Positions 41,147 to 59,579 of a stretch of 64,000 bases of DNA are shown here, piece after piece. The notes beneath the pieces were generated by a model. It was not told the origin of the DNA. It did no database searches and saw nothing but the letters and a program-made list of their open reading frames with translations. The stretch is taken from positions 1 to 64,000 of the forward strand of contig JAILZT010000021.1 of assembly GCA_023512345.1 (NCBI GenBank), in the 5' to 3' direction. Every line of letters begins with the position of its first letter. Position 1 is the stretch's first letter. The stretch comes from Paenibacillus sp. (GTDB lineage: Bacteria; Bacillota; Bacilli; Paenibacillales; Paenibacillaceae). The position numbers were made by a program, and so were the translations under genes.

Positions 41147-41162
41147 GTTCTTTATAAAGTGC
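41147..41162 (+). promoter_or_regulatory. SinR-like box 1
   Basis: GTTCTTTATAAAGTGC. The left half GTTCTTT is an exact match to the SinR half-site GTTCTYT known from B. subtilis; the right half is degenerate. Confidence 0.45.
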
Positions 41163-41270
41163 GATAAAGATGTTAAATTATAGACAACATTTACAAAACT
41201 CTTAGTAAATTAAAGATAAACACTCTTTTGTTCGTTATGATGAAACCATGTGAATTGAGTTTATATTCCC

Positions 41271-41480
41271 TGGTAGGGCTGGCCTTTACTTCGGCAGCTA
41301 TAAATAATACCTTGCTGAAAAAATTTAGCAGGGACCCGGGCTTAAAGGTTGTATTTTTTATGGTATGCTACGGCTCCTCCGAGGCAGGTTCTGTTGCGAA
41401 CAGTATCTGCTTCCTAAACCGGAGGAAAATCCGCTGTGGTCCTTGCTTTAGCTTTTGCGGCAAGGTAGACAAGGGGGTGA
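41271..41480 (+). ncRNA. Structured 5' leader RNA of unknown class
   Basis: Nested stem: TCCTCCG (about 41369) pairs with CGGAGGA (about 41419), enclosing AGGCAG/CTGCTT and CTGTT-GCG-AACAG. A second hairpin CCTTGC/GCAAGG spans about 41441-41466. An upstream pair GCTGGCC/GGCAGC and TGCT/AGCA also occur. It does not match the TPP, SAM, c-di-GMP-I, ydaO, M-box, T-box or cobalamin signatures that I know. It would lie in the leader of the gene at 41556. Confidence 0.5.
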
Positions 41481-41555
41481 AGGTGAAAACTATAAATCTT
41501 ATAAAGAACCATTATAGTAGTCTATTTAGACTAGAGGAAAGTGGGGACCGATAAC

Positions 41556-41876
41556 ATGATCAGGTATATAAAGAAGTGCACCAGGCTGACGTTGATGGTT
41601 ATATTGATAAGTACAATCATGCTGCCTGCTTCTGCCTATGCATCTGCTTCGTCGGTGTCACAGAACACCTCCTCTTATGCCACTTCCTTTTTTTCATCAC
41701 TAGCCGGTGAAATATCTTCATTTTTTCAGAAAGATAAGACCACCTATGATTACAATGATACCAAGACAGTCAGCAATAGCTGGTTCAGCTGGTTAAAGGG
41801 AAATGACGTCAAGAATTGGTGGGATGACAAAAAGGATGACTCCTTCATGCTGTGGGAGAAGTATTACTGTTATTGA
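41556..41876 (+). CDS. Small secreted aromatic-rich protein
   Basis: 106 residues from ATG 41556 (GTG 41541 in frame is less likely). Signal peptide: MIRYIKKCTRLTLMVILIST then IMLPASAYASA, with AYA-SA as the probable cleavage site. The mature part is about 75 residues, Ser-rich at first (SSVSQNTSSYATSFFSSLAG), then charged and rich in Trp/Tyr (WFSWLKGNDVKNWWDDKKDD, ending EKYYCY). One cysteine, next to last. No family recognised. It lies at the edge of the exopolysaccharide region behind a SinR-like box, so a matrix or surface role is possible. A terminator follows. Confidence 0.65.
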   Translation: MIRYIKKCTRLTLMVILISTIMLPASAYASASSVSQNTSSYATSFFSSLAGEISSFFQKDKTTYDYNDTKTVSNSWFSWLKGNDVKNWWDDKKDDSFMLWEKYYCY

Positions 41877-41892
41877 AAAGTAATGAATTAAA

Positions 41893-41938
41893 AAACCGAT
41901 TCTCTTGCCAGCTAAGGCCGGGGATCGGTCTTTTTTTG
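41893..41938 (+). terminator. Terminator of the small secreted protein gene
   Basis: ACCGAT pairs with ATCGGT, followed by CTTTTTTT; the loop carries an inner weak stem. Confidence 0.65.
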
Positions 41939-41942
41939 CAAT

Positions 41943-41975
41943 AAAAAAAGAAAAGAGCCGGGCCCAGGGCACCAA
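41943..41975 (-). terminator. Probable terminator of the SLH beta-helix gene
   Basis: On the minus strand GAG-n-GCCCTGGGC-n-CTC is followed by TTTTCTTTTTT. The stem is interrupted. Confidence 0.45.
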
Positions 41976-41988
41976 CTCCTTCCTCCTA

Positions 41989-44900
41989 TTATTTATTTAA
42001 GATGTTCAAGCTCTGACTGTCATTTGCTTTTAGCGCTAAGACCGCTTTATTTAGAGTATTATTCTGTATCAGGTAAGACGGTGCGCCTGTTCCGGCATAA
42101 ATAGTTGAAATTCCTACGGCTGCTATATTGGAAGTGATGGTGTTGTTATTTATCGTTACATTAAGCACATCATAAGGATCATTTCGTTTCCAGTAATCAT
42201 TGATCTTGATCAGTTCAAGGGTGGTTCTAACCATTTTCATGGCTTGGATGATGTTATTCTCTATGACTATCGTTTTAGCTGTCTGAATGGAGATTGCAGT
42301 AGCATCCCCCAGCACATTAAAGGTGGAGTTGCGGACGGTCAGATCCAGAGCGGCATTCTCGCCATAAAGAGCAATATTTCCGGTAGTATTTGAAGTGAAA
42401 GTGCAGTTGTTAAAAATATATTTTCCGGCGCCAAGCTTCGCTGAACCCATCTTATAGCCCTCAGCTGCTTGGAAAGTACTGTTGGTATAAGTTCCGGGCG
42501 GTAAGGATATGCCGTTATTTGAGTTGTACCCAATCATCTTAAGCCCATCAAATATACTTCCTTCTGCTACAGTTCCTGACAGACTGCCCACACTTCCTGC
42601 TCCTGTGACAGTGACGTTGGTGAGGCGGATGGGTTGATTCCAAATTCGTAGTCCTGCATCGATACTCTTGGTAATATTAATATTTACATTGGAGAGTGTG
42701 ACTCCAAACGGTGTTTTGGAAGTAACGGATAATGTGCCATTCGTGATATCCAAACCATCAATGTTAATATTAGGCCCCTCAAAAAAGGTGGAGGAATCAT
42801 TCATACGGTTATTCAGAAGTGTAGTATCGTGATAAGCAACAATTCGTGTCCCGTCAAAATGGTTTCCTTGTACCAATGCACTTTGGAAGGGCGGAGAAAC
42901 CGCTAAACCTATGACTCCTTTTGATGCAAAATGATTTCCTTCTACGGTTGCATGATGGCCGTCATAAAGGATCAAATCGTAAGAAGCGTTATTAAAAAAC
43001 TTATTACTCTGAATAATAGTGTTCGTAACCAAATCCCCGTTCTCTCCATAACCGCCTTCAAGGTCAATTCCGGATTGTGGAGCAATGCCCTTAATATCAT
43101 GCAGGATGTTGTTTTTGATCACAATGTTGTCCGAGCCGACAAGGCTGATTCCTTGGCGACGGTTGAAGGCTGACTCCGAATTCATAATTACGGAATCTCT
43201 GGTTAAGGCCCGGTTCCAATACTCTACATATGCGCCGGTATGTGAGGATTTAGCGAATACGAGATGGAATTGAGTTACCCCCTCAGGAATATCTATAATA
43301 TCCCGCATACTTTTATCCGCCATTTTCGAGTGGAAGGTTCCAGCAGATGTATAGAAGTAAATATCGAACTTGCCCGGCAGGTTTACCGGATTCATCAATT
43401 CGAAATAAGGCTCTTTTTGAAAAATAGGATTTGTCAGCTGCTGCATTACTTTTGTTCTTATTTTGGAAGCGTCTGTAATCGTTTGACCGCTGTCATTAAT
43501 GGAACCTGAGACAAAGCTCTGCTCATAGATATCAACAAGTGTCCCGTGTGCTGCCAGAATAATGCCGTCACCTGTGAAGTGAGTAGTTTTTACTCTGTCG
43601 ATGACCAGATTCTTGACACCTCTAGCGATTATCCCGTAACCAAACTCATGTGTACCCGCTGAACCTGCATGATCCTTCTTGGAGTAGTCATGCGTTACTC
43701 GGTCACCGATATAGGTGCCGCCTCTTAGTGTTACGTTGTTATCTCCATAATCGAGAGCGACAATCTGATAAGATTCCTTGTCATTGGTTTCTTTTTGTAA
43801 AACAACCTCCATAGGAAGGTCAAACAGCATATTGGGAACCATATTAATTTGACTGGCTTTATCAATTAAATAAGTTCCAGGCGTAAGTGTCGTTGCGGTA
43901 ATGCCCTGCTGATAGGCCCAAATTAGCGCGTTATTAATCCCTTTAGTCGTCTCCACCGGGTGAGTGCCGTCATTGTAGATCCCCCAGCGTGATAATTCAA
44001 TTAAATGGTGACTGGGTGTAAAAGCAGCAACTTCACTGCGTTTTGAGATGTTTTCATTCATATCTACAGCTTCTAGCGTAAGGTTGTACATTTTGCCAAA
44101 CTCCAGATTACCTAACTCATAAGAAACTTGGTTAATGACCTCACTGTTCAACATAATGTCATTTACATAGATGTTGTATCCAGCTAGATCTACCTCCGTA
44201 TTGGCAGACCAGTTGAAAGTTATACTGCTAGGACCACCCGTAGCTGAAACATCCGTAGGCACGGCAGGTGGTGTAATGTCTTGGGTGCGAATAGATATGC
44301 TGGTTCCATTTGACGTATTGTTGCTGCTGTCCACTGTCCTAAGCACGTACTCATATTCTGTCTCACTCAGAAGGTTCTTTACTGTAAAAGAACCCTGAGT
44401 AGAGGAACCCACCAAAACATCTTGTTGATAAATATCAGTGCGCACAAAGTCTAAATCCAAAGGATTATTCCATGTCATGGAAATGGATGTGCCATCATCT
44501 GTAGAAGCTATACCGCTCACTTCTTCGGGTGCAAGGTTATCCGGAAGTCCAGGAACGACATTTATTGTTGCAGATGGCTCTGACTCTTTGTTAAGTGTAT
44601 CTATAGTAGTCACGTACAAACTGTAGGATACGCCGTTGGTCAATCCTTTAACTTCATAAGTGGCTTGTGTAACCGAGGTCGTATTGTATTGAAGCCCGTC
44701 CAAATACACGTTGTAACCTGCTAGATTACTTTCGGAATTGCTCTTCCACTGAAGTTGGAGAGAACCATCATAAGGGACGGCAATCAGTTCTTCAGGAGAA
44801 GAAGGAGGAACGGAACTTGCCGTTGTGAAGCTCATGGTTTTGCCTGCAGATTCATGATTTTTTTTGTCAACGGTTTTAAAGGTAAAACTGTATGAAGTTG

Positions 44901-45945
44901 AAGGCGAGAGTCCACTTTCTTCATAAGATGTTCCGGAGCTGGAAGCGACTTTGGAGCCTTCTTTATAAATATTTACTTTCTTAAAAGAGGCATCGCTTGG
45001 ATTGACCCAAGAAAGGGATAGGCTTGTCTCCTTAATGCTGGCTTGGAGACCGGAAATCTCGGCCTGTACGGAATCAATGCTAGAACTAGGGAAAGGTGTT
45101 TGCAGAGGAGTGGGTCCCATAGTAGGGATGGGTGCTGGCTGCGGCTGTGGAGCTGTCAACTCATCTGATCCAGAACCGATTGCTGATCCGGATCCCCCCC
45201 CTGCTCCAGCTGCAATAGCTTCCGGTGATGGTGATGGTGATGGCAAAGGAATAATCTTTACATTATCATCCGTTTGAGGATTTTGATCCATCGGGTACTT
45301 TTCTCCAGCTGGCTCTAAGCGGAATTCTTTATATAGCGTTCTGGCCAGCAAAGCTGCAAATTCAGATCGGCTTACCATTTTGGCAGGTTGAAAGTTGCCT
45401 TTGGAGTCACCTACAGCTACACCGTTACTAATTAACTTAGAAATAGAGGAAGCTGCCCAGTGATTTCGGGCTATGTCATTGGGTTGGATGGTAGTTAAGG
45501 AGGGGGCATTCAGTTCAAAAGCTCGGGCGATCAGAACAGCACTATCTGCCCTTGTCAGCGTTGCCACAGGCCGAAACGACCCGTCTGCATATCCTGTAAT
45601 GAGGGCATGTTTCTCGGCAGCCTCAATATAGGGAAAAGCCCAATAGGAAGCTGGAACATCCGAATGGGACGGCTTTAAGTTAAGTTCCTGTCCAAGGTCA
45701 ATATTGCTGGTTTGTACAATGATCTTGACAGCCTCAGCCCTTGTTATGGGCATGTCGGGACGGAAAGTTCCATCACTATACCCACCAATCACGTTTTGTT
45801 CCTGCAGACGTTCAATTTCTCTTTGAGCCCAGTGTTTTGAAGATATATCAGAAAAGTGGGTGATACCGGCGGCGTGTGATACGGGTGTAATAGGTATCAG
45901 GAGGGTGGTGAACAGCAGAACAATAATCAATAGTAAATTTCTCAT
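41989..45945 (-). CDS. SLH-anchored protein with four FN3 modules and a beta-helix domain
   Basis: 1318 residues. A signal peptide (residues 1-25, cleavage after SHA) is followed by three SLH repeats (about 28-205; FSDISSKHWAQREIERL, HSDVPASYWAFPYIEAA, NDIARNHWAASSISKLI). Then a Pro/Gly/Ser linker, four fibronectin III modules (about 290-655), and a C-terminal right-handed parallel beta-helix (about 657-1318) of the pectate-lyase superfamily beginning RWGIYNDGTHPVETTKGIN. A jelly-roll-like stretch (about 845-935) interrupts the helix between KIRTKV and TRDSVIMNSESAF. The whole beta-helix part is paralogous to the divergent gene at 46226. Likely cell-wall-bound and acting on a polysaccharide as lyase, hydrolase or epimerase; the activity is not shown. 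Confidence 0.9.
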   Translation of the reverse strand: MRNLLLIIVLLFTTLLIPITPVSHAAGITHFSDISSKHWAQREIERLQEQNVIGGYSDGTFRPDMPITRAEAVKIIVQTSNIDLGQELNLKPSHSDVPASYWAFPYIEAAEKHALITGYADGSFRPVATLTRADSAVLIARAFELNAPSLTTIQPNDIARNHWAASSISKLISNGVAVGDSKGNFQPAKMVSRSEFAALLARTLYKEFRLEPAGEKYPMDQNPQTDDNVKIIPLPSPSPSPEAIAAGAGGGSGSAIGSGSDELTAPQPQPAPIPTMGPTPLQTPFPSSSIDSVQAEISGLQASIKETSLSLSWVNPSDASFKKVNIYKEGSKVASSSGTSYEESGLSPSTSYSFTFKTVDKKNHESAGKTMSFTTASSVPPSSPEELIAVPYDGSLQLQWKSNSESNLAGYNVYLDGLQYNTTSVTQATYEVKGLTNGVSYSLYVTTIDTLNKESEPSATINVVPGLPDNLAPEEVSGIASTDDGTSISMTWNNPLDLDFVRTDIYQQDVLVGSSTQGSFTVKNLLSETEYEYVLRTVDSSNNTSNGTSISIRTQDITPPAVPTDVSATGGPSSITFNWSANTEVDLAGYNIYVNDIMLNSEVINQVSYELGNLEFGKMYNLTLEAVDMNENISKRSEVAAFTPSHHLIELSRWGIYNDGTHPVETTKGINNALIWAYQQGITATTLTPGTYLIDKASQINMVPNMLFDLPMEVVLQKETNDKESYQIVALDYGDNNVTLRGGTYIGDRVTHDYSKKDHAGSAGTHEFGYGIIARGVKNLVIDRVKTTHFTGDGIILAAHGTLVDIYEQSFVSGSINDSGQTITDASKIRTKVMQQLTNPIFQKEPYFELMNPVNLPGKFDIYFYTSAGTFHSKMADKSMRDIIDIPEGVTQFHLVFAKSSHTGAYVEYWNRALTRDSVIMNSESAFNRRQGISLVGSDNIVIKNNILHDIKGIAPQSGIDLEGGYGENGDLVTNTIIQSNKFFNNASYDLILYDGHHATVEGNHFASKGVIGLAVSPPFQSALVQGNHFDGTRIVAYHDTTLLNNRMNDSSTFFEGPNINIDGLDITNGTLSVTSKTPFGVTLSNVNINITKSIDAGLRIWNQPIRLTNVTVTGAGSVGSLSGTVAEGSIFDGLKMIGYNSNNGISLPPGTYTNSTFQAAEGYKMGSAKLGAGKYIFNNCTFTSNTTGNIALYGENAALDLTVRNSTFNVLGDATAISIQTAKTIVIENNIIQAMKMVRTTLELIKINDYWKRNDPYDVLNVTINNNTITSNIAAVGISTIYAGTGAPSYLIQNNTLNKAVLALKANDSQSLNILNK

Positions 45946-46225
45946 TATTGTTTTCCCTTCTATTAAAAACCAAATTTTTCAATTGTCTTACCACCTATTT
46001 ATCGGAAAATAAAAGTAGTATTTTTAGGAAGAAACCAAGGATTATTTGGAAAAAAGAGATGACTAAAGTTCTGTCTTTTCAATAGGTGTTTATAGGTCTT
46101 TAGTAGTATGGTTAGCCGTTCACCAGCGGTTTAACTTTTCTTTTAGATGGAAAGCATGGTAGTCTAGATAAGTGCATTCGTTTTAAAGAACGAAAATGTC
46201 TCTAATAAAAATCGGGGTGATATAG
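45946..46225. promoter_or_regulatory. Divergent promoter region of the two beta-helix genes
   Basis: 280 AT-rich bases between the divergent starts. A possible plus-strand promoter is TTAGAT, 16 bases, TAGATA ending near 46170. It is followed by the palindromic box described separately. Confidence 0.45.
46176..46194. promoter_or_regulatory. SinR-like box 2
   Basis: ATTCGTTTTAAAGAAC (46176-46191) aligns over 16 bases with the other boxes; read on the minus strand it includes GTTCTTT. TTCGTT-TTAAAG-AACGAA (46177-46194) is a perfect six-base inverted repeat. Confidence 0.5.
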
Positions 46226-48349
46226 GTGAGCAAAATATTCGGCAGGTTATCCATAATAATGATTTTGTTACTTATTTGTGTTCCAGGAGATGCTTTCAGT
46301 GAAGACAATGCTAATTCTACAACCGTGCAAATGATTGATATTTCCAAATGGGGGATCTACAAAGATGGGACTCATCCAATAGAAACAACCAAAGGGATTA
46401 ACGAGGCACTGATTTGGGCTAACAAAAACGGTATTAAGGCGACTTCACTTCCACCTGGAACCTATCTAATCGATAAGGACAGCCGCATTAACATGGTCAG
46501 TAATATGAAATTTGCTTTGACGTCTGACGTGGTGCTGCAGAAAGAGACTAATGATAAAGAAAACTATGCTCTGATGTATATTGGTTACGGCATTAAAAAT
46601 GTAAGGTTGAGCGGAGGCGTATACGTAGGAGATAGAACAACGCATGATTACTCTAAGAAGGACAATCCATACAGTTCGGGGACTCATGAAGGTGGATACG
46701 GGATCCACACAGATGGTGCCTCTAATATCGTCATTGAGAATGTGAAAGCCGTTGACTTTACTGGAGACGGTCTAATCTTGGGCGGTTATGGAACCATGAT
46801 TACCGATTTATACGAAGGCAGTTTTGTACCGGGGGGGATGACTAGCCTTGGCATTCCGGTGAAAAATGCAACGAAGATTCGTACCAAAACAGCGATCACA
46901 CTGAACAAACCCATTCTTAAAACGGAAAAGTCCTTTGAGCTCTCTAATTTTATGAAGGTGCCCAAAGGCTTTGAGGTGTATTTTTACAAGGCGGATGGCT
47001 CCTTCCTGAAGAAAATATATGCACAAGCACGTAACCAGGTAGGTATTCCAGTGGGTGCCGATCATTTCCATCTTGTATTCAGCCAGACTTCCCTTAAGGG
47101 GGTCTATCTGGAAGTATGGAGTCGTGTAGCTACACGGAACGTTATCGTTACGGACTCAGAGTTTGCTTTTAATCGCCGTCAGGGTATTACCGTCGGAGGG
47201 GCGGATAAAGTGCTCATTAAAGATAGTGTATTTCATGATATGAAAGGAACGGCTCCACAATCTGGTATTGATGTAGAAGGCGGGTTCCATGTTAACGGCT
47301 ATTTCAATAGCAACGTTACTATCAAAAATAATGAATTTTATAATAACGCCGCATATGATGTCATTCTTTATGATGGTGAGAGTGCCGTGGTAGAGGGAAA
47401 CCATCTGGGCTCAAAAGAACGAATCGGCGTCGCTATCTCAGCTCCCTTTAAGAATGCGAGGGTGGTTAACAATCACTTCGACGGATCACGGATTGTTGCG
47501 GAGAATGATGTCGTGTTTGTGGGGAACAAAATGAATGATTCCAACGCCAGCTTTCAAGGTTCCAAAATTATTGTGGAAGGGTTGGAGTTGACGGACTCCA
47601 AACTGGCGGTTACTGCAAAGGATTCATTTGGAGTGGAGATTTCCGACGTAACCATTACTAATAATAAAAAGTATGATACTGGTCTTATTCTGTGGGGAAA
47701 ACCAGTTCGAATCACGAACCTGACCATCTCTGGGCAGTCTACCATGCGTTCAGTAACTGGCGGTGGCACGGGGGGATCTATATTTGAGAATCTTAGAGTT
47801 CTTGATTATAACCCTACCTATGGGCTGACTCTTCCTCCCGGCACTTATAATAATTGTTTCTTTGAGGCGGCAGAGGGCAGCGGGATGGGCACCGTTTCGG
47901 CTACTATGCCGGGCAGTTATATCTTCAACGGCTGCAGCTTCAAAACCAATGCGGGAGGTGCCGGTGCACTGCATGCAGAGCAAGCGAATCTGAATTTGAC
48001 TGTCAAAGACTCTACATTTGATGTGCTTGGCAATGCGACGGCAATCAGTGTTCAGGCTGCTCAAAGTGCTCTTATAGAAAACAATATCATTAACGCACTT
48101 ACCCAAACGGCAAACAGTGTTGAGCTTATTAAGATTAACAGCTATTGGACTAAAAATGCTCCGTTTGATATCCTCAGCGCCACGATTCGCGGCAATACGA
48201 TTACAAGTAATATGCAAGCCTATGGAATATCCACACAGAATGCAGGAGTAAATGCTCCTCCATACGTTATTGAGAACAATATATTAACCAAAGCAAAATT
48301 GGTAGCTAAACCCAATGACAAGCTAAGCAATAACACATTGCTGCCGTAG
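46226..48349 (+). CDS. Secreted beta-helix protein (pectate-lyase superfamily)
   Basis: 707 residues. Signal peptide (residues 1-25, ending GDAFSE), then directly a right-handed beta-helix starting KWGIYKDGTHPIETTKGINE. It aligns along its whole length with residues 650-1318 of the divergent SLH protein: shared TTKGIN-ALIWA, VVLQKETNDKE, HDYSKKD, FTGDG, FNRRQGI, APQSGID-EGG, YDVILYDG and NNHFDGSRIVA. The helix contains the same inserted module (about 200-300). It lacks SLH and FN3 parts, so it should be released. GTG 46226 follows GGGGTGATATAG. A role in trimming or modifying the local exopolysaccharide fits the context but is inference. Confidence 0.88.
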   Translation: MSKIFGRLSIIMILLLICVPGDAFSEDNANSTTVQMIDISKWGIYKDGTHPIETTKGINEALIWANKNGIKATSLPPGTYLIDKDSRINMVSNMKFALTSDVVLQKETNDKENYALMYIGYGIKNVRLSGGVYVGDRTTHDYSKKDNPYSSGTHEGGYGIHTDGASNIVIENVKAVDFTGDGLILGGYGTMITDLYEGSFVPGGMTSLGIPVKNATKIRTKTAITLNKPILKTEKSFELSNFMKVPKGFEVYFYKADGSFLKKIYAQARNQVGIPVGADHFHLVFSQTSLKGVYLEVWSRVATRNVIVTDSEFAFNRRQGITVGGADKVLIKDSVFHDMKGTAPQSGIDVEGGFHVNGYFNSNVTIKNNEFYNNAAYDVILYDGESAVVEGNHLGSKERIGVAISAPFKNARVVNNHFDGSRIVAENDVVFVGNKMNDSNASFQGSKIIVEGLELTDSKLAVTAKDSFGVEISDVTITNNKKYDTGLILWGKPVRITNLTISGQSTMRSVTGGGTGGSIFENLRVLDYNPTYGLTLPPGTYNNCFFEAAEGSGMGTVSATMPGSYIFNGCSFKTNAGGAGALHAEQANLNLTVKDSTFDVLGNATAISVQAAQSALIENNIINALTQTANSVELIKINSYWTKNAPFDILSATIRGNTITSNMQAYGISTQNAGVNAPPYVIENNILTKAKLVAKPNDKLSNNTLLP

Positions 48350-48417: not shown

Positions 48418-48426
48418 AATGAATGA

Positions 48427-48503
48427 AGGTTGACATGTTCTGTATAAAGAACTAAAATTGACAAATAATGTTCTTTATTGAAGTCATTCTCTAAAGTGGG
48501 TGA
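48427..48503 (+). promoter_or_regulatory. Promoter module A with SinR-like box 3
   Basis: -35 TTGACA (48430-48435), 17-base spacer, -10 TAAAAT (48453-48458). The box GTTCTGTATAAAGAAC (48437-48452) fills the spacer, and GTTCTTT recurs at 48470. The 77 bases match 49649-49725 at 72 positions. Confidence 0.8.
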
Positions 48504-48612
48504 TAGCTAGAGGGACGAATCGAATGGTGTTCTCAACTAGTAAGCTCTGGAATAAGTATTACTATGATTCGAGAAACACAAAGGATGACCATCTATAAAG
48601 AGGGGGTTATTT

Positions 48613-49518: not shown

Positions 49519-49562
49519 TAAGAACTAATAATTAAGGAATCAGCAATAAAACGTTTGATATC

Positions 49563-49596: not shown

Positions 49597-49648
49597 TCAT
49601 ATAAACGATCCATATAACGAACAAAAGGTTAGGTAAAGAGCCAATAAG

Positions 49649-49725: not shown

Positions 49726-49729
49726 AAGC

Positions 49730-51131: not shown

Positions 51132-51160
51132 CATTTTAGAATAGAAGGGGTGAGCGAACA

Positions 51161-53002
51161 TTGATTTATAAGAATCGATTATCAGTATTGTTATTGATGG
51201 ATTCGCTTATTGTACTGTCGGCTATTTTTATCAGCTGTTTTTTGGTAAACGCCTCTTTTAATGTCTTTACACAACCGGTAGTGGTTAGTTCTATCACTTT
51301 GCTGTTGAGTTATCATGTGTTTGCTTTGGTATCCCACATGTATAAGAAGGCATGGGAATATGCCAGTATCGGAGAATTGATCCTAATTACAAAAGTAATT
51401 TCCTTCTCGATAATCTCAGCGGCTACCGTTCAACTGGTTGTTTCTCAGGAGATTCATTATCGACTGCTGGCTGTGACTTGGATGCTGCATATTCTTCTTA
51501 TTGGAGGTTCAAGATTCTGCTGGCGTGCAATAAGAGGTCGTATCATCAAGCAGGATGAGCCGTTGTTCCAATCCAAACGCACCTTAATTATTGGAGCAGG
51601 ATCTGCCGGTACGATGGTAGCTAGACAATTACTATCCGGCTTCAATAAGGAACTGAAACCTGTAGCCTTTGTAGACGATAACGTCAAAAAGCATGGTTTG
51701 GATATCATGGGAATCCCGGTTGTAGGGAGTACGAATTCCATTGAAGAAATAGCCGCGCAGTATCAAATTGATAATATTGTTATCGCAATTCCCTCGCTCA
51801 ATAAAGGTCAGCTCAAGGCGATCTACGCGGAGTGTGCAAAGTCGACAGCCAAAACGCAAACGATTCCTATGCTTGAAGATCTCGCCAGCGGCAAGATTTC
51901 TGTAAGTCAATTCCGGGATGTACAAGTGGAGGATTTACTCGGGCGGGAGCTGGTACGGCTGGATCTTGAGAGCATATCCGGTTATGTAACCGACAAGGTT
52001 GTCTTAGTTACAGGGGCCGGCGGTTCTATAGGGTCGGAGGTATGTAGACAAATCACTAAATTTAATCCGAAAAAGCTCGTTCTACTTGGACATGGCGAGA
52101 ATAGTATTTACTCCATCGAGATTGAATTAAAGGCCATGTTCAGGGACCAAGGGGTTCAATTCTATACGGAGATTGCGGATCTTCAGGACGAGAGCAAAAT
52201 TATTAGTGTAATGAACTTTCATCGTCCGGATGTTGTCTACCATGCTGCCGCACATAAGCATGTGCCCTTAATGCAGCGGAATCCGGAAGAGGCGGTTAAG
52301 AATAATATCATTGGCACGATGAATGCGGCTAGAGCGGCAAGCTTGTCGGGGGTTGGAACCTTTGTAATGATATCCACTGATAAAGCTGTCAATCCAACCA
52401 GTGTCATGGGCTCCACCAAGCGGATAGCGGAGATGATTATTCAACATATGGATCGCTTCAGCCAAACGAAATTTGTTGCTGTTCGTTTCGGTAATGTTCT
52501 TGGAAGCCGGGGCAGTGTAATTCCATTATTCCGCAAGCAGATTGAGAATGGCGGACCGGTAACGGTAACCCATCCGGATATGGTCCGTTATTTCATGACT
52601 ATACCGGAGGCCTCCAGATTGGTAATCCAAGCGGGTGCACTCGCTCGTGGCGGAGAGGTGTTTGTGCTCGACATGGGGGAACCTGTGAAAATTGTGGATC
52701 TGGCTAAAAATCTGATCCGGATGTCTGGATATTCCCTTGAAGAGATTGGAATTGAATTCACCGGCATGAGACCGGGAGAAAAGATGTATGAAGAGCTTCT
52801 TAAGGATACGGAAGTGCACGACGTCCAGGTATATCCCAAGATATATATCGGAAAATCAACCGAAATGAGTTTTGACGGAGTCGATCACCTTCTGCAGGTC
52901 TATGACACTCTTACCATAGAAGAGCTTAGACAAATGCTGCTCGATATCGCCAATAACCGATTTGAGATTGAAGTTCCACTAATGAAGGCTACAGTAGGTT
53001 AG
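51161..53002 (+). CDS. EpsC/CapD-like nucleoside-diphosphate-sugar dehydratase/epimerase
   Basis: 613 residues from TTG 51161 (AGGGGTG upstream). Four N-terminal membrane spans, a CoA-binding/Rossmann domain (TLIIGAGSAGTMVARQLL near residue 143), then a short-chain dehydrogenase domain with VLVTGAGGSIGSEVCRQI near 285, YHAAAHKHVPLM near 362 and STDKAVNPTSVMGSTKR near 405. Members are UDP-GlcNAc 4,6-dehydratases producing precursors of deoxy-amino sugars; here it likely works with the aminotransferase and acetyltransferase downstream to make a bacillosamine-like sugar. Confidence 0.92.
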   Translation: MIYKNRLSVLLLMDSLIVLSAIFISCFLVNASFNVFTQPVVVSSITLLLSYHVFALVSHMYKKAWEYASIGELILITKVISFSIISAATVQLVVSQEIHYRLLAVTWMLHILLIGGSRFCWRAIRGRIIKQDEPLFQSKRTLIIGAGSAGTMVARQLLSGFNKELKPVAFVDDNVKKHGLDIMGIPVVGSTNSIEEIAAQYQIDNIVIAIPSLNKGQLKAIYAECAKSTAKTQTIPMLEDLASGKISVSQFRDVQVEDLLGRELVRLDLESISGYVTDKVVLVTGAGGSIGSEVCRQITKFNPKKLVLLGHGENSIYSIEIELKAMFRDQGVQFYTEIADLQDESKIISVMNFHRPDVVYHAAAHKHVPLMQRNPEEAVKNNIIGTMNAARAASLSGVGTFVMISTDKAVNPTSVMGSTKRIAEMIIQHMDRFSQTKFVAVRFGNVLGSRGSVIPLFRKQIENGGPVTVTHPDMVRYFMTIPEASRLVIQAGALARGGEVFVLDMGEPVKIVDLAKNLIRMSGYSLEEIGIEFTGMRPGEKMYEELLKDTEVHDVQVYPKIYIGKSTEMSFDGVDHLLQVYDTLTIEELRQMLLDIANNRFEIEVPLMKATVG

Positions 53003-53027
53003 GAAGAATAATGGAGGGAGGCGGCGA

Positions 53028-54191
53028 ATGTCCAATAAAATATTGTTTTGTGCAACCGTCGACTTTCATTTCAGCTCATTTCATTTGCCTGTGCTGGAAT
53101 GGTTCAAGCAACAGAATTGGGAAGTTCATGTTGCCGCACAGGGCGAGATGGAGCTCCCTTTTGTAGATAAGAAATTTAATATCCCTTTGGAGCGCTCACC
53201 CTTCAGCCGAAATAACGTGGCAGCTTACCGTCAGTTGAAAGATATTATAGATCAGAATGATTATCAAATCATCCATTCTCACACACCTATGGGTGGTGTT
53301 CTTGCCCGGCTGGCTGCCAGGGGATCGAGAAAAAAAGGGACAAAGGTCATTTATACTGCACATGGATTTCATTTCTGCAAAGGATCCTCTCTTCTGAACT
53401 GGGCATTGTATTACCCGATTGAGAAGACTCTCTCCCGTCTGACGGACTGCTTGATCACCATAAACAATGAGGATTACAGCCTGGCCGTAAATCACAGGTT
53501 TAAAGCGAAGCAGATTGAGCATGTACATGGTGTGGGAATCAACACCGAACGGTATGGACCTATAGCGCAGGCGGAGAAGGCTCTTCTGAGGAAGGCATTG
53601 TCCTATAATTCCGATGACTTTCTTATGTTCTATGCCGCTGAATTCAACCGTAATAAGAATCATCAGCTGCTGATTAGATCCCTTGCCAAGATTAAGGATC
53701 AGGTCCCTCAGGCGAAACTTCTGTTCGCGGGTCGGGGAAGCCTGCAAGAGGAATGCAAAGAACTAGCTGCACAGCTGGGTGTGGGAGAAAGGGTTGAGTT
53801 TCTCGGATACCGTAATGATATCTATAAGCTCCTGCCTTTATGTGACATCGCTGTTTCAGGAAGCTTGAGAGAAGGTCTTCCCGTTAACATCATGGAAGCG
53901 ATGGCTTGCGGACTGCCTGTGGTTGCAACACGTAATAGGGGACACCTGGAATTGGTGAAAGTTGATGAGAATGGTTTCCTATGTGATCCCGAGCAGGTTC
54001 ATGAGATGTCTAACCATATGCTGACGCTCGCACAGTCCGATGTGATTAAGCAGCGAATGGGTAAGCAGAGCTTGGAATATATCAGGAAGTACGATCTGAG
54101 ACAGGTTAGAGAACAGCTAAGCCGAATTTATACCCCGCTTATGGAGCATTCCACAGCCAACACAGAACATCTACAGCTGTCGGGTCTTTAA
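53028..54191 (+). CDS. Glycosyltransferase family 4 (EpsD-like)
   Basis: 387 residues. N-terminal GT4 acceptor domain MSNKILFCATVDFHFSSFHL and IIHSHTPMGGVLARLAAR; C-terminal donor domain with YAAEFNRNKNHQLLIRSLAK and the E-x7-E motif SLREGLPVNIMEAMACGLPV. Cytoplasmic, membrane-associated transfer of a sugar to a lipid-linked precursor is expected. The order after EpsC matches B. subtilis epsD. Confidence 0.9.
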   Translation: MSNKILFCATVDFHFSSFHLPVLEWFKQQNWEVHVAAQGEMELPFVDKKFNIPLERSPFSRNNVAAYRQLKDIIDQNDYQIIHSHTPMGGVLARLAARGSRKKGTKVIYTAHGFHFCKGSSLLNWALYYPIEKTLSRLTDCLITINNEDYSLAVNHRFKAKQIEHVHGVGINTERYGPIAQAEKALLRKALSYNSDDFLMFYAAEFNRNKNHQLLIRSLAKIKDQVPQAKLLFAGRGSLQEECKELAAQLGVGERVEFLGYRNDIYKLLPLCDIAVSGSLREGLPVNIMEAMACGLPVVATRNRGHLELVKVDENGFLCDPEQVHEMSNHMLTLAQSDVIKQRMGKQSLEYIRKYDLRQVREQLSRIYTPLMEHSTANTEHLQLSGL

Positions 54192-54231
54192 TAAGTGCGG
54201 AATCCAAATATTACTTCTATATGAGGTGAAC

Positions 54232-55119
54232 ATGAGAACTTTAACTGTCTTTACACCTACCTATAATCGCGCCTACTGCTTACATGTGCTATATGAAAGT
54301 CTTGCGCGGCAAACTAATTCGGATTTTGAGTGGCTGATCATCGATGACGGTTCCACAGATAACACCTCGGAAATCGTAGAGGGATGGATACAGGAAAAGT
54401 TGGTATCCATACGCTATTATCGGCAGCAGAATCAGGGAATGCACGGCGCACATAACTCTGCCTACGAGCATATTAAGACCGAACTGAATGTATGTATCGA
54501 TTCGGACGATTATATGCCAGATGATGCCGTTGAGAAAATAATATCATTCTGGAGGCAATACGGGAGTGATAAGGTCAGTGGATTTATTGGTCTGGATAGT
54601 TATTTCAACGGTGAAATTATCGGGACACGGCTACCTGAACATGTGAAGACAGCCACATTGTTTGACCTTTACTACAAGTATGGAGTAACGGGAGACAAGA
54701 AGCTGGTATACCGTACGGCATTAATGAAGGAATATCCGTACCCGTTGTTCGATGGCGAGAATTATGTGGGATTGGCTTACAAGTATTACATGCTGGATAT
54801 TCATTATGAACTCTTGATTATGAATGAGATTCTGTGCTGTGTAGAGTACCTTCCGGATGGATCTACGCGGAATATGCTCAAGCAATATCGGAGGAATCCG
54901 AAGGGGTTTGCCTTTTACCGGGTGGAATTAATGAAGTTGCCCTTTGCGGGGGTACCCTTCAAGATTAGGCAATCCATACACTATGTATCCAGTTCATTGA
55001 TCATGAGAAACAAAAGGATGCTTAGAGAAACACCGGAAAAGCTGCTTACCTTACTCACGTTGTTCCCAGGTTTTGCTCTATATCTGTACATTATGTCCAA
55101 GACAAAGACTAGCAGCTGA
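54232..55119 (+). CDS. Glycosyltransferase family 2
   Basis: About 295 residues from ATG 54232, with GAGGTG upstream (in-frame GTG 54226 is part of it). GT-A fold: TVFTPTYNRAYCLHVLYESL, IIDDGSTDNTSEIV and the metal-binding NVCIDSDDYMPDDAVE. The sugar donor is unknown. It is placed like epsE in B. subtilis. The coding end approaches the next gene by 13 bases. Confidence 0.88.
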   Translation: MRTLTVFTPTYNRAYCLHVLYESLARQTNSDFEWLIIDDGSTDNTSEIVEGWIQEKLVSIRYYRQQNQGMHGAHNSAYEHIKTELNVCIDSDDYMPDDAVEKIISFWRQYGSDKVSGFIGLDSYFNGEIIGTRLPEHVKTATLFDLYYKYGVTGDKKLVYRTALMKEYPYPLFDGENYVGLAYKYYMLDIHYELLIMNEILCCVEYLPDGSTRNMLKQYRRNPKGFAFYRVELMKLPFAGVPFKIRQSIHYVSSSLIMRNKRMLRETPEKLLTLLTLFPGFALYLYIMSKTKTSS

Positions 55120-55132
55120 AAGGGATGAGCGC

Positions 55133-56206
55133 ATGACGATCATTTGGCTTACGCTCATGGTGGGTTTTCTATTCTCATTTCTTGCCCGTTATTATGCCGT
55201 ACCCGATATAAATAGCCCTGTATTTATAAGACCCAGTAAGTCCTTAGCTTACGTCGTTGCTGCTGTAATCGTGATCTGCTCAGGTCTAAGGAACAATATA
55301 GGCGATACCTTCTTTTACATGCATGCTTATATCGTTGACGATTTATCTTGGATGGGGATCCTTCAGAACAAGGATATCGGCTTCGGTATTCTTCAAATGG
55401 TATTGAAAAGCTATACCGATGATCCGCAAATCCTAATTGTAGTTACAGCATTGGTTACCAATTTTCTAATAGTAATGGTGCTGTACAAATATGCAAGATT
55501 GTTTGATCTGGCGGTTTATCTTTATATCACATCAGGTGCATTTATAGTCTCGATGAACGGGATTAGACAGTACCTTACAGCAGCCATTATCTTTGCCGCC
55601 ACTAAGTATATTCTGGATGGCAGCTGGAAGAAGTATATGCTTGTTGTTCTGATTGCGGCCTTGTTTCACCAGAGCGCATTAATCCTGATTCCGATTTACT
55701 TTATCGTGCGCAGAAAGGCTTGGACAACAGCAACGTTTTTAATGCTGGGGCTTGCTGTCCTAATTGTTTTTGGCTTCAATCAATTTTCGGATATTCTCTT
55801 CTCCGCTATTAAGGATACTCAATATGGTGAGTATCAAAGCTTTAGTGAAGGCGGTGCTAACGTCTTCCGGGTCGCTTTTTATGCCCTGCCGCTCGTGATT
55901 GCTTTTCTGGGAAGAGAGAAGCTGAGAGTGCTGTTTCCACACATTGATATTATAGTGAATCTTTCATTAATCGGGTTGCTCCTAATGATTATTTCTACAC
56001 AAAACTGGATTTTCGCCAGGCTGGCCATCTACTTTACGTTATATCAGATCATATTGACCTCATGGGTAGTTAAGGTGTTCCGTAAGAAAGATCAAAAGCT
56101 CGTGTTTTTAAGTCTTTTGATCATCTATCTAGTCTTTTTCTTCTATGAAAATGTGATTACATTGGGACTTCAATACAGGAGCGACTATCTGAAGTGGTTT
56201 CTATAA
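55133..56206 (+). CDS. EpsG-family membrane protein, probable polysaccharide polymerase
   Basis: 357 residues from ATG 55133 with AAAGGGATGAG upstream. About ten to twelve membrane spans. The segment CSGLRNNIGDTFFYMHAY near residue 47 and SMNGIRQYLTAAIIFAATKY near 140 match EpsG/Wzy-like proteins that polymerise repeat units at the outer face of the membrane. Confidence 0.85.
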   Translation: MTIIWLTLMVGFLFSFLARYYAVPDINSPVFIRPSKSLAYVVAAVIVICSGLRNNIGDTFFYMHAYIVDDLSWMGILQNKDIGFGILQMVLKSYTDDPQILIVVTALVTNFLIVMVLYKYARLFDLAVYLYITSGAFIVSMNGIRQYLTAAIIFAATKYILDGSWKKYMLVVLIAALFHQSALILIPIYFIVRRKAWTTATFLMLGLAVLIVFGFNQFSDILFSAIKDTQYGEYQSFSEGGANVFRVAFYALPLVIAFLGREKLRVLFPHIDIIVNLSLIGLLLMIISTQNWIFARLAIYFTLYQIILTSWVVKVFRKKDQKLVFLSLLIIYLVFFFYENVITLGLQYRSDYLKWFL

Positions 56207-56219
56207 AGGAGAAATTTAG

Positions 56220-56954
56220 ATGGAGGATATAGAAAAAATTCCAAGGATTATCCACTACTGCTGGTTTGGAAGAGGAGCAAAGCCGAAAATCCTGCAAAAG
56301 TGCATCATTAGCTGGAAAAAACATTTGCAAGGTTATGAATTCATGGAATGGAATGAGGATAACTTTGACATTAACGCCAATCCATACGTTCGTGAGGCTT
56401 ATGAGGCTAGAAAGTTTGCTTTTGTTAGTGACTATGTACGGCTGCATGCTTTATATGAACGGGGCGGTATTTATATGGATACCGATGTAGAGGTGATTCA
56501 GCCGCTGGACCGTTTTTTGGTACATGAGGCTTTTTCAGGTTTTGAGGATGAAAGCTTTCTCCAATCTGGAACTATGGGTGCAGTGAAAGGACACGGCTGG
56601 ATTAGAGAATTGATGGAGTATTATAACTCTAGAAGCTTTAAGCGGTCTGACGGTACTTACGATACCACTACCAATACTACCGTGATTAGTAGAATCTGCC
56701 GAGAACATGGCCTCCAGCTGAACGGGAAATATCAAGCACTTACGAACGGCGTAATCTTTTACCCGCGCTGCTACTTTAGCCCGTACGATTATATTGATGG
56801 AGGGAACTATATTACGGAGGAAAGCTATACGATACATCATTTTGCCCAATCCTGGCTGCCTTTTCATATTCGGATGAAAAGCCAGTTGAAGAAAACGGTC
56901 AGCAGAGTGATCGGTCATGAGAATGTATCGAAAATAAGGAAGATTTTCTCTTAG
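56220..56954 (+). CDS. GT32-type capsular glycosyltransferase
   Basis: 244 residues. [20 protein letters not shown] at the start and the DXD site [16 protein letters not shown] near residue 80 define the glycosyltransferase sugar-binding (Gly_transf_sug) family; [16 protein letters not shown] precedes it. A cytoplasmic GT-A fold enzyme; donor unknown. Fourteen bases after the EpsG-like gene. Confidence 0.88.
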
Positions 56955-56967
56955 GGAGCTACCGGAT

Positions 56968-57582
56968 ATGAAGCGAATGTTGGATCTCATAGTTGCCATT
57001 CCCGTATTTCTTGTATTTCTGCCGGTGATTACTATTACGGCGCTTCTTGTTCGTATTAAGTTAGGTTCGCCAATTCTTTTTAAGCAAAGTCGTCCGGGCT
57101 TGCATGGGAAGCCTTTCTATGTGTATAAGTTCCGGACAATGACAGATGAGTCGGATTCCTCAGGCCAGTTGTTGTCTGACCATCTCCGTTTAACCACCTT
57201 TGGGAAGTTTTTGAGAAAATATAGTCTGGATGAACTTCCGCAACTGTGGAATGTGCTCAAAGGTGATATCAGTCTGGTCGGTCCAAGACCGCTGTTAGTG
57301 GACTATCTGCCGCTGTATTCGGAAGAGCAGGCCAGAAGACATGAGGTTAAACCGGGAATCACTGGTTGGGCTCAGGTTAACGGCCGCAACACGATATCCT
57401 GGGAGGAAAAGTTCAAACTGGATATCTGGTATGTGGATCACTACAGCTTCATGCTGGATCTCAAGATATTATGGCTAACGCTGCTTAAAGTTGTTAAGAC
57501 GGAGGGCATTAATAGTGCGGATCATGCTACCATGCCGATGTTTCGAGGGGCTGTTAATAATGAAGAGGGAAGTAGAGGGTGA
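56968..57582 (+). CDS. Undecaprenyl-phosphate sugar phosphotransferase (EpsL-like)
   Basis: 204 residues. One N-terminal hydrophobic span and the bacterial sugar-transferase core: [57 protein letters not shown] and [20 protein letters not shown]. These monotopic enzymes place the first sugar phosphate on undecaprenyl phosphate, priming repeat-unit assembly. The adjacent dehydratase and aminotransferase suggest an acetamido-deoxy sugar as primer. Confidence 0.92.
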
Positions 57583-57587
57583 GACCT

Positions 57588-58754
57588 ATGACAACCAACC
57601 ATCGGATTTTTCTGTCTCCGCCTCACATGAGCGGTAGAGAGCAATACTACATTAATGAAGCTTTCGAGACCAACTGGATCGCTCCGCTTGGACCCAATGT
57701 GGATGCCTTTGAGCAAGAGATAGCCGACTATTCGGGTGTTAGGGGTGCCGCCGCATTGAGCTCAGGTACCGCAGCCCTGCATATAGCTCTGCAACTGCTT
57801 GAAGTAGGTAAGGGAGACCGGGTGTTTTGCTCAACTTTAACTTTTGTAGCGAGTGCGAATCCCATCTGCTACTTGAACGCAGAGCCCGTCTTTATAGACT
57901 CTGAGCCTGATACATGGAACATGTCTCCAAGCGCCCTGCAGCTTGCTCTGGAAGAGGCTGACCGTATAGGGAAGCTGCCCAAAGCCGTCATCGTAGTGCA
58001 TTTATATGGGCAAAGTGCCAAGATGAAAGAAATCCTATCCCTCTGCAATCAATATGATATTCCACTTATTGAAGATGCTGCTGAATCGCTTGGGTCTACA
58101 TATCAAGGACAGCCTAGCGGCTCACTTGGAAAATTTGGAATTTTCTCCTTTAATGGCAATAAGATTATTACCACCTCCGGTGGGGGGATGCTCATTTCGA
58201 ATGATGAGGAAGCCTTGAGAAAAGCTCGTTTTCTGGCGACTCAGGCCAGAGATCCAGCTCCGCATTACCAGCACAGCGTTATGGGCTACAATTACCGGTT
58301 AAGCAATCTTCTAGCCGGGGTAGGCAGAGCACAACTGCAGGTGCTGGATGAGCGGGTGGAATCGAGAAGGGCTATATTTGATAGGTACCAGGCAGCACTG
58401 GGGGGTATAGATCGACTCCACTTCATGCCAGAGCTGGCAGGTACAAAGTCAAACCGCTGGCTGACCGCCCTTACGGTTGATGAGGAAGAAAACGGGATGA
58501 AGTTGCCGGAGCTGCTGAAGGCACTGGCGGATCAAAATATAGAGGCGCGTCCTGTATGGAAACCTCTCCATATGCAGCCTTTATTCGCAGGTTGCTTATT
58601 CTATTCCCATAACGATGAAGTTTGTGTATCTGAGCAGTTATTTCAGACTGGACTGTGCCTACCTTCGGGTTCCAGCATGAGTCTGGGTGAACAGCAAAGA
58701 GTGATTACTTGTATTGAGGAATCTTTAATGACCATTTCTACCCAACCCCACTAA
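57588..58754 (+). CDS. DegT/DnrJ/EryC1-type sugar aminotransferase (EpsN-like)
   Basis: 388 residues from ATG 57588 (GAGGGTGAG upstream; GTG 57579 overlaps the previous stop). Family motifs NEAFETNWIAPLGPNVDAFE, AALSSGTAALHIALQLL, LIEDAAESLGSTYQG and the PLP lysine in FSFNGNKIITTSGGG near residue 190. Converts the 4-keto sugar from the EpsC-like enzyme to a 4-amino sugar. It ends four bases before the convergent acetyltransferase gene, with no terminator between. Confidence 0.92.
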   Translation: MTTNHRIFLSPPHMSGREQYYINEAFETNWIAPLGPNVDAFEQEIADYSGVRGAAALSSGTAALHIALQLLEVGKGDRVFCSTLTFVASANPICYLNAEPVFIDSEPDTWNMSPSALQLALEEADRIGKLPKAVIVVHLYGQSAKMKEILSLCNQYDIPLIEDAAESLGSTYQGQPSGSLGKFGIFSFNGNKIITTSGGGMLISNDEEALRKARFLATQARDPAPHYQHSVMGYNYRLSNLLAGVGRAQLQVLDERVESRRAIFDRYQAALGGIDRLHFMPELAGTKSNRWLTALTVDEEENGMKLPELLKALADQNIEARPVWKPLHMQPLFAGCLFYSHNDEVCVSEQLFQTGLCLPSGSSMSLGEQQRVITCIEESLMTISTQPH

Positions 58755-58758
58755 TTGA

Positions 58759-59418
58759 CTATAGATAGCGTTCCCCGAGCTGACGGGTACGTACAACCCG
58801 GGCAGGAGTTCCGTATGCAACCGAGTACTCCGATATATCGGATAATACGGTGGATCCTGCCCCAATAACTGTATGTTCTCCAATGACTGTAGAGTGGATG
58901 ATATTGGCGCCTATGGAGATCACGCTGCAATCACCGATATGTACATTTCCGCCCGTAGCGGTATTGGGAGCTAGGGTCACAAAGTTTCCTAACGTACTAT
59001 CATGATCAACGGAGGCTTGAGAGTAAAGAATGCAATGATTACCGATGATCGTATCGCTGCCGATAACAGCACCAGCCATAACTACACTCCCCTGACCTAT
59101 GACAGTGCCTTTGGCGAGAGTGGCAGAGGGATGTACAGCAGAAATAAAAGTGAAGTCCGGATGTAGTGAGATCAACTGGTCAACGAGCTGCGATCGCCTC
59201 CAATTATCCCCGATAGCTATAATCCCGCCGTAAATTTGGCTCCCCATGTTGGAAACGACCTGCTCATCACCAAGGATTTCATATCCGTAAATCATGGAGC
59301 CTGGTGACTTATAGCTATCCAATATTCCGATGATCTCGTACAAACCCGCTTTCTCAATAACATCAATTACAGCTTTGGCGTGGCCTCCTGCACCGAATAC
59401 AATGATCTTTCTCAACAC
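58759..59418 (-). CDS. NeuD/PglD-type sugar O/N-acetyltransferase (EpsM-like)
   Basis: 219 residues from GTG at 59418, with GGAGG eight bases upstream on the minus strand; upstream in-frame codons are less well placed. Rossmann-like N-terminal part KIIVFGAGGHAKAVIDVIEK, then left-handed hexapeptide repeats (GTVIGQGSVVMAGAVIGSDT, IIGNHCILYSQASVDHDSTL, GNVHIGDCSVISIGANIIHS). It probably acetylates the amino sugar made by the aminotransferase. In B. subtilis epsM lies in the same direction between epsL and epsN; here it is inverted after the epsN-like gene. Confidence 0.9.
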   Translation of the reverse strand: MLRKIIVFGAGGHAKAVIDVIEKAGLYEIIGILDSYKSPGSMIYGYEILGDEQVVSNMGSQIYGGIIAIGDNWRRSQLVDQLISLHPDFTFISAVHPSATLAKGTVIGQGSVVMAGAVIGSDTIIGNHCILYSQASVDHDSTLGNFVTLAPNTATGGNVHIGDCSVISIGANIIHSTVIGEHTVIGAGSTVLSDISEYSVAYGTPARVVRTRQLGERYL

Positions 59419-59502
59419 TCCATCAGCCTCCATTTCTATTCTCAAACTATATCATACTCCTCTGATGAGCCAGAGTAATTTGTAGCTTTTTGCAACAATC
59501 AT

Positions 59503-59579
59503 TTGACAACTTTCCAGATAGAGTGGTACGCTTTATTTGTGTTCGTTAAATAGAACAAAAACTAATAATTTTGTTCGTT
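59503..59579 (+). promoter_or_regulatory. Promoter region of the second exopolysaccharide operon with SinR-like box 5
   Basis: TTGACA at 59503-59508 with a weak TACGCT at 59527-59532 (18-base spacer). GTTCGTTAAATAGAAC (59541-59556) lies around the expected start site and aligns with the other boxes; GTTCGTT recurs at 59573-59579. Confidence 0.5.

Follow-up and report, generated by a model that had tools for sequence, protein, structure and literature searches.

Which genes of a Paenibacillus are switched on together with its exopolysaccharide genes, and through which regulator, is the question raised by a window of 64,000 nucleotides (nt) from Paenibacillus sp. (GenBank assembly GCA_023512345.1), which comprises positions 1 to 64,000 of contig JAILZT010000021.1, here called C14. 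The genome measures 5.88 Mb, of which C14, with 78,763 bases, makes up 1.34%; C14 coordinates past 64,000 continue the numbering of the window. A first-pass annotation had singled out five alignable 16-mers in promoter regions of the window, at 41147, 46176, 48437, 49659 and 59541, and had proposed that one SinR-like repressor controls a matrix regulon through them; all five are present, letter for letter. We put at roughly four in five the probability that these boxes are SinR-family operators and that a lasso-peptide operon, which lies on the same contig beyond the end of the window, is among their targets.

The box and its match to the SinR operator

The box consists of two inverted GTTCTYT half-sites 2 bp apart, 16 bp in total (GTTCTTT-AT-AAAGAAC), which bears out the proposed match to the SinR operator, in the arrangement that SinR of Bacillus subtilis prefers: that protein is reported to bind an inverted-pair duplex at 300 nM, with a 10-fold preference over tandem and single sites (PMC3163267), and the SinR-1 operator of kinB is described as a 16-mer of the same inverted form (PMC5733473). 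Relative to the SinR consensus, a site at C14:76695 is exact, those at 48437, 49510 and 49659 carry one mismatch, and the boxes at 41147, 46176 and 59541 are more degenerate.

Within the window, the pattern GTTCTWTATAAAGAAC with up to three mismatches gave 17 strand matches against 1.38 expected, with a maximum of 4 in 100 shuffles. This pattern was drawn from the sites of the first-pass annotation itself, hence two independent tests were added, namely a pattern taken from the published SinR consensus, GTTCTYTNNARAGAAC, and conservation across species. With at most one mismatch, GTTCTYTNNARAGAAC has 11 sites in the 5.88 Mb genome (4 for the reversed-pattern control), and 4 of the 11 fall on C14 (p ~1e-5). 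Only two matches are exact, one inside an open reading frame (ORF) on contig C1 and the other C14:76695, which had already surfaced in the first genome scan, made with a pattern built from the window sites. The informative signal is confined to the strongest sites and their clustering, and the genome-wide totals at two mismatches are not informative; nor is the broad pattern GTTCN8GAAC (135 against 109). The box occurs 113 times in 43 of 80 sinR loci fetched from other genomes, nearly all of these loci being from Paenibacillus or Cohnella, and 105 of the occurrences fall outside ORFs of at least 150 amino acids, a space with 24% of the bases there; five scrambled palindromes of the same base composition gave 1-6 hits each. 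Chance or composition as the origin of the boxes is rejected on the strength of the shuffles, the scrambled palindromes and the conservation.

The eps promoter and the second polysaccharide operon

The best conserved boxes of the window belong to the following features:

49652-49680, plus strand: eps promoter (from the sequence), TTGACA followed by t and the box GTTCTATATAAAGAAC (49659-49674) and then TAATAT, with a half-site at 49692
49700-58754, plus strand: eps-like operon (Pfam) with Wzz, a tyrosine-kinase-type ATPase, an EpsC-type protein, glycosyltransferases, EpsG, a sugar transferase and an aminotransferase
58759-59445, minus strand: PglD-type acyltransferase (Pfam), divergent and sharing the region of box 59541
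59541-59556, no strand assigned: box GTTCGTTAAATAGAAC (from the sequence), with a half-site at 59573
59606-60793, plus strand: NTP_transf_5 (PF14907) nucleotidyltransferase (Pfam; start by eye), heading the second polysaccharide operon

As the first-pass annotation had seen, the box fills the spacer between -35 and -10 in two cases, 48437 and 49659, which stand in TTGACA-N17-TAAAAT and TTGACA-N17-TAATAT, and both are followed at 33 bp by the half-site GTTCTTTAT. The eps box is retained in relatives. From 25 of the 80 sinR loci, a recognisable wzz orthologue was obtained in 24 of 25 genomes, and the box is present with at most one mismatch in all 24 orthologous promoters and in none of six paralogous wzz promoters. 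In 23 of the 24 it follows TTGACA and fills the spacer to the -10, the -35 in L157 being TTGACT, and a half-site resembling GTTCTTTAT lies 31-33 bp further on in most relatives, though poorly recognisable in two Cohnella.

Twenty of these neighbourhoods (L169-L188) were used for promoter counts gene by gene. Boxes precede wzz (20/20) and NTP_transf_5 (18/19) as first genes of transcription units, and further boxes stand before the divergent pglD (17/17), at an internal promoter of epsC (16/20) and before galE (6/13), against none in 230 promoter windows of 13 operon-internal genes and a single hit for five scrambled palindromes over all those windows. The start of the NTP_transf_5 gene, judged by eye, is probably the ATG at 59606, which places box 59541 upstream, followed after 32 bp by the half-site GTTCGTTAT; the second polysaccharide operon is thus preceded by a box, as had been proposed, and by one kept in 18 of 19 relatives.

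The lasso-peptide operon

Beyond the end of the window, the perfect site belongs to a lasso locus:

C14:70535-70864, minus strand: sinR paralogue, here SinR14 (HTH_3 and PF08671; alignment to SinR)
C14:70914-76604, minus strand: paeninodin-type lasso operon (family models) with an ABC exporter, B2 peptidase, PqqD-type RiPP recognition element (RRE) protein, HprK-like kinase, precursor and cyclase
C14:74514-74639, minus strand: lasso precursor of 41 amino acids with a C-terminal Ser (from the sequence)
C14:76695-76710, no strand assigned: perfect box GTTCTCTATAAAGAAC in the lasso promoter (pattern scans)

The RRE and the B2 peptidase score above their model cut-offs, and the cyclase (LasC) and the HprK-like kinase are identified by hits below cut-off. 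The apparent operon closes, after a gap of 50 nt, with SinR14, whose gene lies 6.5 kb outside the window. Among the 80 sinR loci, 35 have a lasC hit, and a box stands within 450 nt upstream in 32 of the 35, two of the three misses being cut by the end of the locus.

Lasso promoters were also compared across 196 Paenibacillaceae genomes. The 30 best lasC matches, searched over 450 nt upstream and all from genomes with a SinR homologue (E 1e-12), carry the box in 27 cases. A second set held 40 further lasC matches (the next 20 rows, with one duplicate skipped, and 20 lower rows expected to be mostly without SinR; 600 nt upstream and 60 inside); in it the box occurs in 4 of 11 copies from genomes with a SinR homologue and in none of 29 from genomes without. 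Pooled, this gives 31/41 against 0/29 (p 1.6e-11, a guide only, as the genomes are related). The pattern suggests that the lasso peptide of this soil Paenibacillus is made together with the biofilm matrix.

At five loci (L060, L061, L063, L064 and L069) an RRE and a B2 gene directly precede sinR in the absence of a nearby lasso cyclase; a 36% lasC match lies further along in L064, and L069 is a short contig. At L097:8856-14137, sinR splits the lasso cluster, with B2 and RRE on one side and lasC, kinase and exporter on the other.

The nucleotidyltransferase at the head of the second operon is tied to the lasso genes as well. An orthologue of it (49-55%) lies directly after the lasso operon, convergent with it, in all eight genomes fetched for the lasso region, which were taken from 14 same-genus genomes that lack SinR14, and seven of the eight have a box upstream. 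For the lasso peptide pseudomycoidin, the addition of hexoses to the phosphorylated Ser is reported to require a nucleotidyltransferase, PsmN (PMC9266682). From this adjacency, the role of PsmN and the C-terminal Ser of the precursor, it follows by analogy that the second polysaccharide operon probably starts with a lasso-tailoring enzyme, and the lasso nucleotidyltransferase is probably part of the matrix regulon.

SinR and SinI homologues

The first-pass annotation had advised a search for SinR- or SinI-like genes, and these exist: the genome has one SinI and three SinR-like proteins that combine HTH_3 with PF08671, the sinI gene being convergent with a sinR on contig C46 and not beside SinR14. 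SinR14 aligns to B. subtilis SinR (1b0n, 3zkc) over residues 1-106 without gaps (E 2.6e-36), its PF08671 match, the C-terminal SinI-like multimerisation domain, is above cut-off, and it shares K28 (the sin-box recognition residue of the N-terminal HTH), S33, S43, E97, Y101 and W104 with SinR, R105 being replaced by Lys; mutants of SinR at K28, S43 and W104 are described as having lost or weakened DNA binding (PMC6123443). An NCBIfam scan of SinR14 gave SlrR as best model, at 82.6 bits (cut-off 250), with no SinR model among the hits. The closest named relative in the scan is Paenibacillus wynnii, in whose strain DS2010 SinR14 is 95% identical, and the proteins of genes neighbouring SinR14 are 65-97% identical there, those of the lasso genes lowest.

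Residue 33 was considered as a discriminating position. Ser33 in all 80 fetched homologues is uninformative, as it is part of one of the seed peptides, KSYLSSIE. In the SinI-paired SinR of this genome the residue is Asn, so that either specificity is not set by position 33 or the box is common to different paralogues; the case for this position as a discriminating one is weakened by genomes that have only the SinI-paired type and keep the lasso box. Upstream of sinI, 420 nt hold no exact Spo0A box (TGTCGAA/TTCGACA), and two TTCGACA matches with one mismatch were not called.

A further SinR-like gene (136-139 amino acids, Tyr at position 33) with a box of its own stands directly before wzz in 13 of the 20 relatives L169-L188. 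This genome has no SinR-like gene before wzz.

Assignment of the boxes and alternative explanations

Across the 196 genomes, the exact eps-promoter signature TTGACANGTTCTNTATNNAGAACTA occurs in 19, all of them within the 20 that hold a SinR14 orthologue (at least 64% identity, a threshold set once the list was known; the genome ranked next, at 62%, is without the signature). The remaining holder, G189, has an orthologue at 81% and no signature, and none of the other 176 genomes has it, 39 of these having only more distant SinR homologues and 137 none. This co-occurrence may reflect a locus travelling as a block. Fifteen genomes with lasC promoters lack SinR14, 14 of them from the genus of the window, and all 15 have one SinR and one SinI. 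Five of these, scanned whole with at most one mismatch to GTTCTTTATNAAGAAC, gave 5, 3, 4, 3 and 2 distinct sites, against 0, 0, up to 2 on a strand, 0 and 0 for the reversed pattern. In all five, one or two boxes lie at an operon 0.3-3.7 kb from sinR, and four have a one-mismatch box at the lasso promoter, where the fifth has a box with two mismatches. The first gene of the operon near sinIR, scanned in four of the five, had no Pfam match (0/4), and NCBIfam gave one weak hit, to TolA and below cut-off. In the three loci that extend far enough, this gene is followed by a partial SipW-type peptidase, with SipW model scores below cut-off.

Several findings weigh against the assignment to SinR, or against parts of it. 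Genome-wide, the pattern built from the window sites has, with up to two mismatches, 43 strand matches against 51 for the reversed control, so the advice to check the frequency of the motif returned an excess and clustering on C14 for the consensus pattern at one mismatch and no excess over the control at two. No box within two mismatches turns up in the 15 kb surrounding sinIR in this genome, and the tapA-position and sipW genes of the relatives have no homologue in the stretches searched here (the window, L056-L058, L241 and L242). The SinI-paired SinR carries Asn33, 7 of the 11 lasso copies of the second set that come from genomes with a SinR homologue are without a box, and 12 of the 15 genomes lacking SinR14 nevertheless keep the box in their lasC promoters. 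In addition, p-values overstate independence, given the kinship of the compared genomes and the possibility that the locus is passed on as a unit. For a cluster of another peptide class, a linear phosphopeptide (LPP) cluster on contig C49, the box has three mismatches to the core pattern here and two in two near relatives, and none of 25 other loci with a related nucleoside triphosphate (NTP) transferase, not all of them proven LPP clusters, has one.

That SinR14 alone regulates the locus, with the SinI-paired SinR irrelevant, would fit its physical linkage, its Ser33, as in SinR, and the distribution of the eps signature (19/20 against 0/176), but this distribution could also arise simply from the locus being transferred as a whole, and we regard the idea as doubtful; because 12 of 15 SinR14-less genomes keep the lasso box, the boxes are not exclusive to SinR14. 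Rather, the box is probably a SinR-family operator read by more than one paralogue. The proposal of one repressor thus stands in part: SinR-type boxes do precede matrix operons, in other species too, but the genome has three SinR homologues, any of which may be responsible. A role of SinR mainly as activator, or a SlrR-like heteromer repurposing the box, would accord with the several SinR paralogues per genome, with the second SinR-like gene and its own box before wzz in 13 of 20 relatives, and with the need for SinR in positive stringent control at kinB as described in PMC5733473; the position in the -35/-10 spacer suits repression, however, and this genome is without the SinR-like gene before wzz, which together leave such a role unlikely.

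Many XRE-family repressors bind short inverted repeats. With 37 HTH_3 matches in the genome, a different dyad-binding XRE regulator might own the boxes, yet the sequence and spacing of the box equal those of the SinR operator, the loci that bear boxes contain or adjoin sinR genes, the strongest sites in relatives with one SinR and one SinI include the operon near sinIR, and lasso promoters from genomes without a SinR homologue have the box in 0 of 29 cases, so that we consider another owner improbable. Promoter composition or the spread of a repeat, with no operator function, is barely credible: the promoter at 48437 is indeed a local near-copy of that at 49659, and the two-mismatch counts (43 against 51) would agree, but neither the scrambled palindromes (1-6 hits against 113) nor the conservation at fixed places across genera would be expected of it.

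From the observed sites, promoter geometry, genes, conservation and co-occurrence, we infer an operon structure, DNA binding, repression, SinI control and feedback that would work together as follows. SinR would dock on the inverted GTTCTYT pair as a dimer and may, as a tetramer, engage the half-site downstream as well; at eps, with the operator between -35 and -10, SinR on the DNA would keep RNA polymerase off the promoter. The SinI whose gene adjoins a second sinR, elsewhere in the genome, would titrate SinR when matrix is needed and thereby switch on together the eps operon, the nucleotidyltransferase with the second polysaccharide operon, and the lasso operon, the LPP cluster possibly among them. 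With sinR as the last gene of the lasso operon, derepression may raise SinR14 and damp the switch by negative feedback. Tentatively, the lasso peptide of Paenibacillaceae, phosphorylated and probably decorated with sugar, could be a product of the matrix programme made only in SinR-derepressed, matrix-producing cells, perhaps attached to the polysaccharide or used in signalling, and the sinR copy a self-damping switch that sets the number of committed cells.

Relation to known systems

Compared with the SinR/SinI regulon of B. subtilis (epsA-O, tapA-sipW-tasA, slrR, kinB), the locus shares the repressor family, the inverted GTTCTYT operator and the eps targets, and the five relatives share a boxed operon near sinIR with a sipW-type gene where the locus reaches that far. 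It differs in that the operator fits exactly between -35 and -10 and is followed by a half-site after 31-33 bp, in the extra sinR that ends the lasso operon, and in having the lasso peptide, the nucleotidyltransferase and the second polysaccharide operon as candidate targets; targets beyond the B. subtilis regulon, as that regulon is generally given, are thus present, in line with the earlier proposal. In B. subtilis, slrR, which encodes a SinR homologue, lies directly upstream of epsA. That very place is taken in 13 of 20 relatives by the SinR-like gene that precedes wzz, whereas the present genome has none before wzz and has SinR14 at the lasso operon.

Popov et al. 2026 (PMC13381572) describe lasso clusters of the paeninodin type and LPP clusters that sit within loci for capsular polysaccharide, with gene sets and co-location as found here, and report that in P. 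alginolyticus the lasso RRE, the LPP RRE and an eps gene rise synchronously in stationary phase; that paper calls the roles of the lasso peptides and LPPs unknown and gives a link to biofilms as speculation only. The word SinR has no occurrence in its main text, to which our word search was confined, and the proposed operator and the sinR gene could explain the co-expression reported there. Within the searches made, no literature joining lasso peptide, Paenibacillus and SinR was found; in PMC7911366, SinR appears as B. subtilis background. Like pseudomycoidin (PMC9266682), the present system ties an NTP transferase to a kinase-containing lasso cluster, and its precursor ends in Ser, as do the substrates of PadeK and PsmK; unlike PsmN, this putative tailoring enzyme is encoded by the first gene of a polysaccharide operon, some 10 kb away from the lasso operon. 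A conserved SinR-type operator on both eps and lasso promoters would be a concrete candidate cause of co-expression with polysaccharide genes, and would make it testable whether lasso peptides and LPPs belong to the biofilm programme. It would also define a SinR operator for the Paenibacillaceae, with the operator-in-spacer geometry kept across genera.

Lineage-limited boxes and other features of the window

The remaining boxes and genes of the window are these:

41147-41162, no strand assigned: box GTTCTTTATAAAGTGC (sequence match; blastn against P. wynnii; Pfam of P. wynnii genes)
41556-41876, plus strand: small secreted protein, ATG and signal peptide by eye, without a Pfam family
41989-45945, minus strand: surface protein with SLH, fn3 and beta-helix domains (Pfam)
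46176-46191, no strand assigned: box ATTCGTTTTAAAGAAC between divergent beta-helix genes (sequence match)
46226-48349, plus strand: beta-helix protein (Pfam)
48430-48458, plus strand: promoter of the GT14-type gene (from the sequence), TTGACA followed by t and the box GTTCTGTATAAAGAAC (48437-48452) and then TAAAAT, with a half-site at 48470
48613-49518, plus strand: Core-2/I-branching (GT14-type) glycosyltransferase (Pfam PF02485)
49510-49525, no strand assigned: an extra box GTTCTCTAATAAGAAC at the end of the GT14-type gene (pattern scans), added to the original five

The gene content predicted earlier (SLH/beta-helix proteins, Core-2 glycosyltransferase, eps-like operon and second operon) agrees with Pfam. 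By sequence comparison, the boxes at 41147, 46176 and 48437 are lineage-limited. Box 41147 was said to precede the small secreted protein, and does so at about 400 bp from its ATG (41556, by eye), but that gene is probably a secondary target: the orthologous box of P. wynnii precedes an operon (blastn, Pfam) of a 609-amino-acid AMP-binding enzyme and an acyltransferase, of which only fragments persist in this genome, the secreted protein being the next intact gene. In P. wynnii, the only relative comparable at this promoter, the secreted-protein gene has a different box of its own, the left half of which is missing here. Box 41147 therefore seems to mark what is left of the promoter of an operon since lost. 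Relative to P. wynnii, several deletions between 40800 and 41560 took out most of that operon and brought its promoter region next to the secreted-protein gene. Four homologues of the secreted protein were found, the three named ones all from Paenibacillus.

A site like box 46176 occurs in the nearest four of eight relatives inspected (P. wynnii, P. rhizophilus, P. spiritus and P. zanthoxyli) and in none of the other four; at a stricter threshold of at most two mismatches to the core pattern, two of nine relatives have it. The GT14-type gene has no homologue in the neighbourhoods of the 20 relatives, and its promoter and leader (48424-48506) equal the eps promoter (49646-49728) at 74 of 83 positions, which suggests that the gene is an insertion that copied the eps promoter.

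Away from C14, the LPP cluster is a ribosomally synthesised and post-translationally modified peptide (RiPP) locus:

L241:5352-10142 (C49): LPP-type RiPP cluster (models and motif) with precursor, NTP transferase, kinase-like protein, RRE, archaeal-type signal peptidase and exporter

Its weak site, C49:117127, lies directly before the precursor, which is recognised by a YxxPxVL..FETxxS motif; SpI, RRE, NTP transferase and ABC models score above cut-off, and the kinase is identified by weak hits. The set corresponds to that given for LPPs in PMC13381572 (SpI, RRE, kinase, NTP transferase, MsbA-like exporter and precursor).

In the scan with up to two mismatches, 7 of 33 distinct genome sites fall on C14. 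The other 26 comprise 17 inside ORFs of at least 70 amino acids and nine outside, which are followed by genes for DinB, two methyltransferases, GerPE, a SPOR-domain protein, CheB, one unmatched protein, a GGDEF protein and the LPP cluster. The site GTTCTTAATAAAGAAG (L049:1501-1516, C12:413566) stands directly before the GGDEF gene, and a link from SinR to cyclic di-GMP through it is possible.

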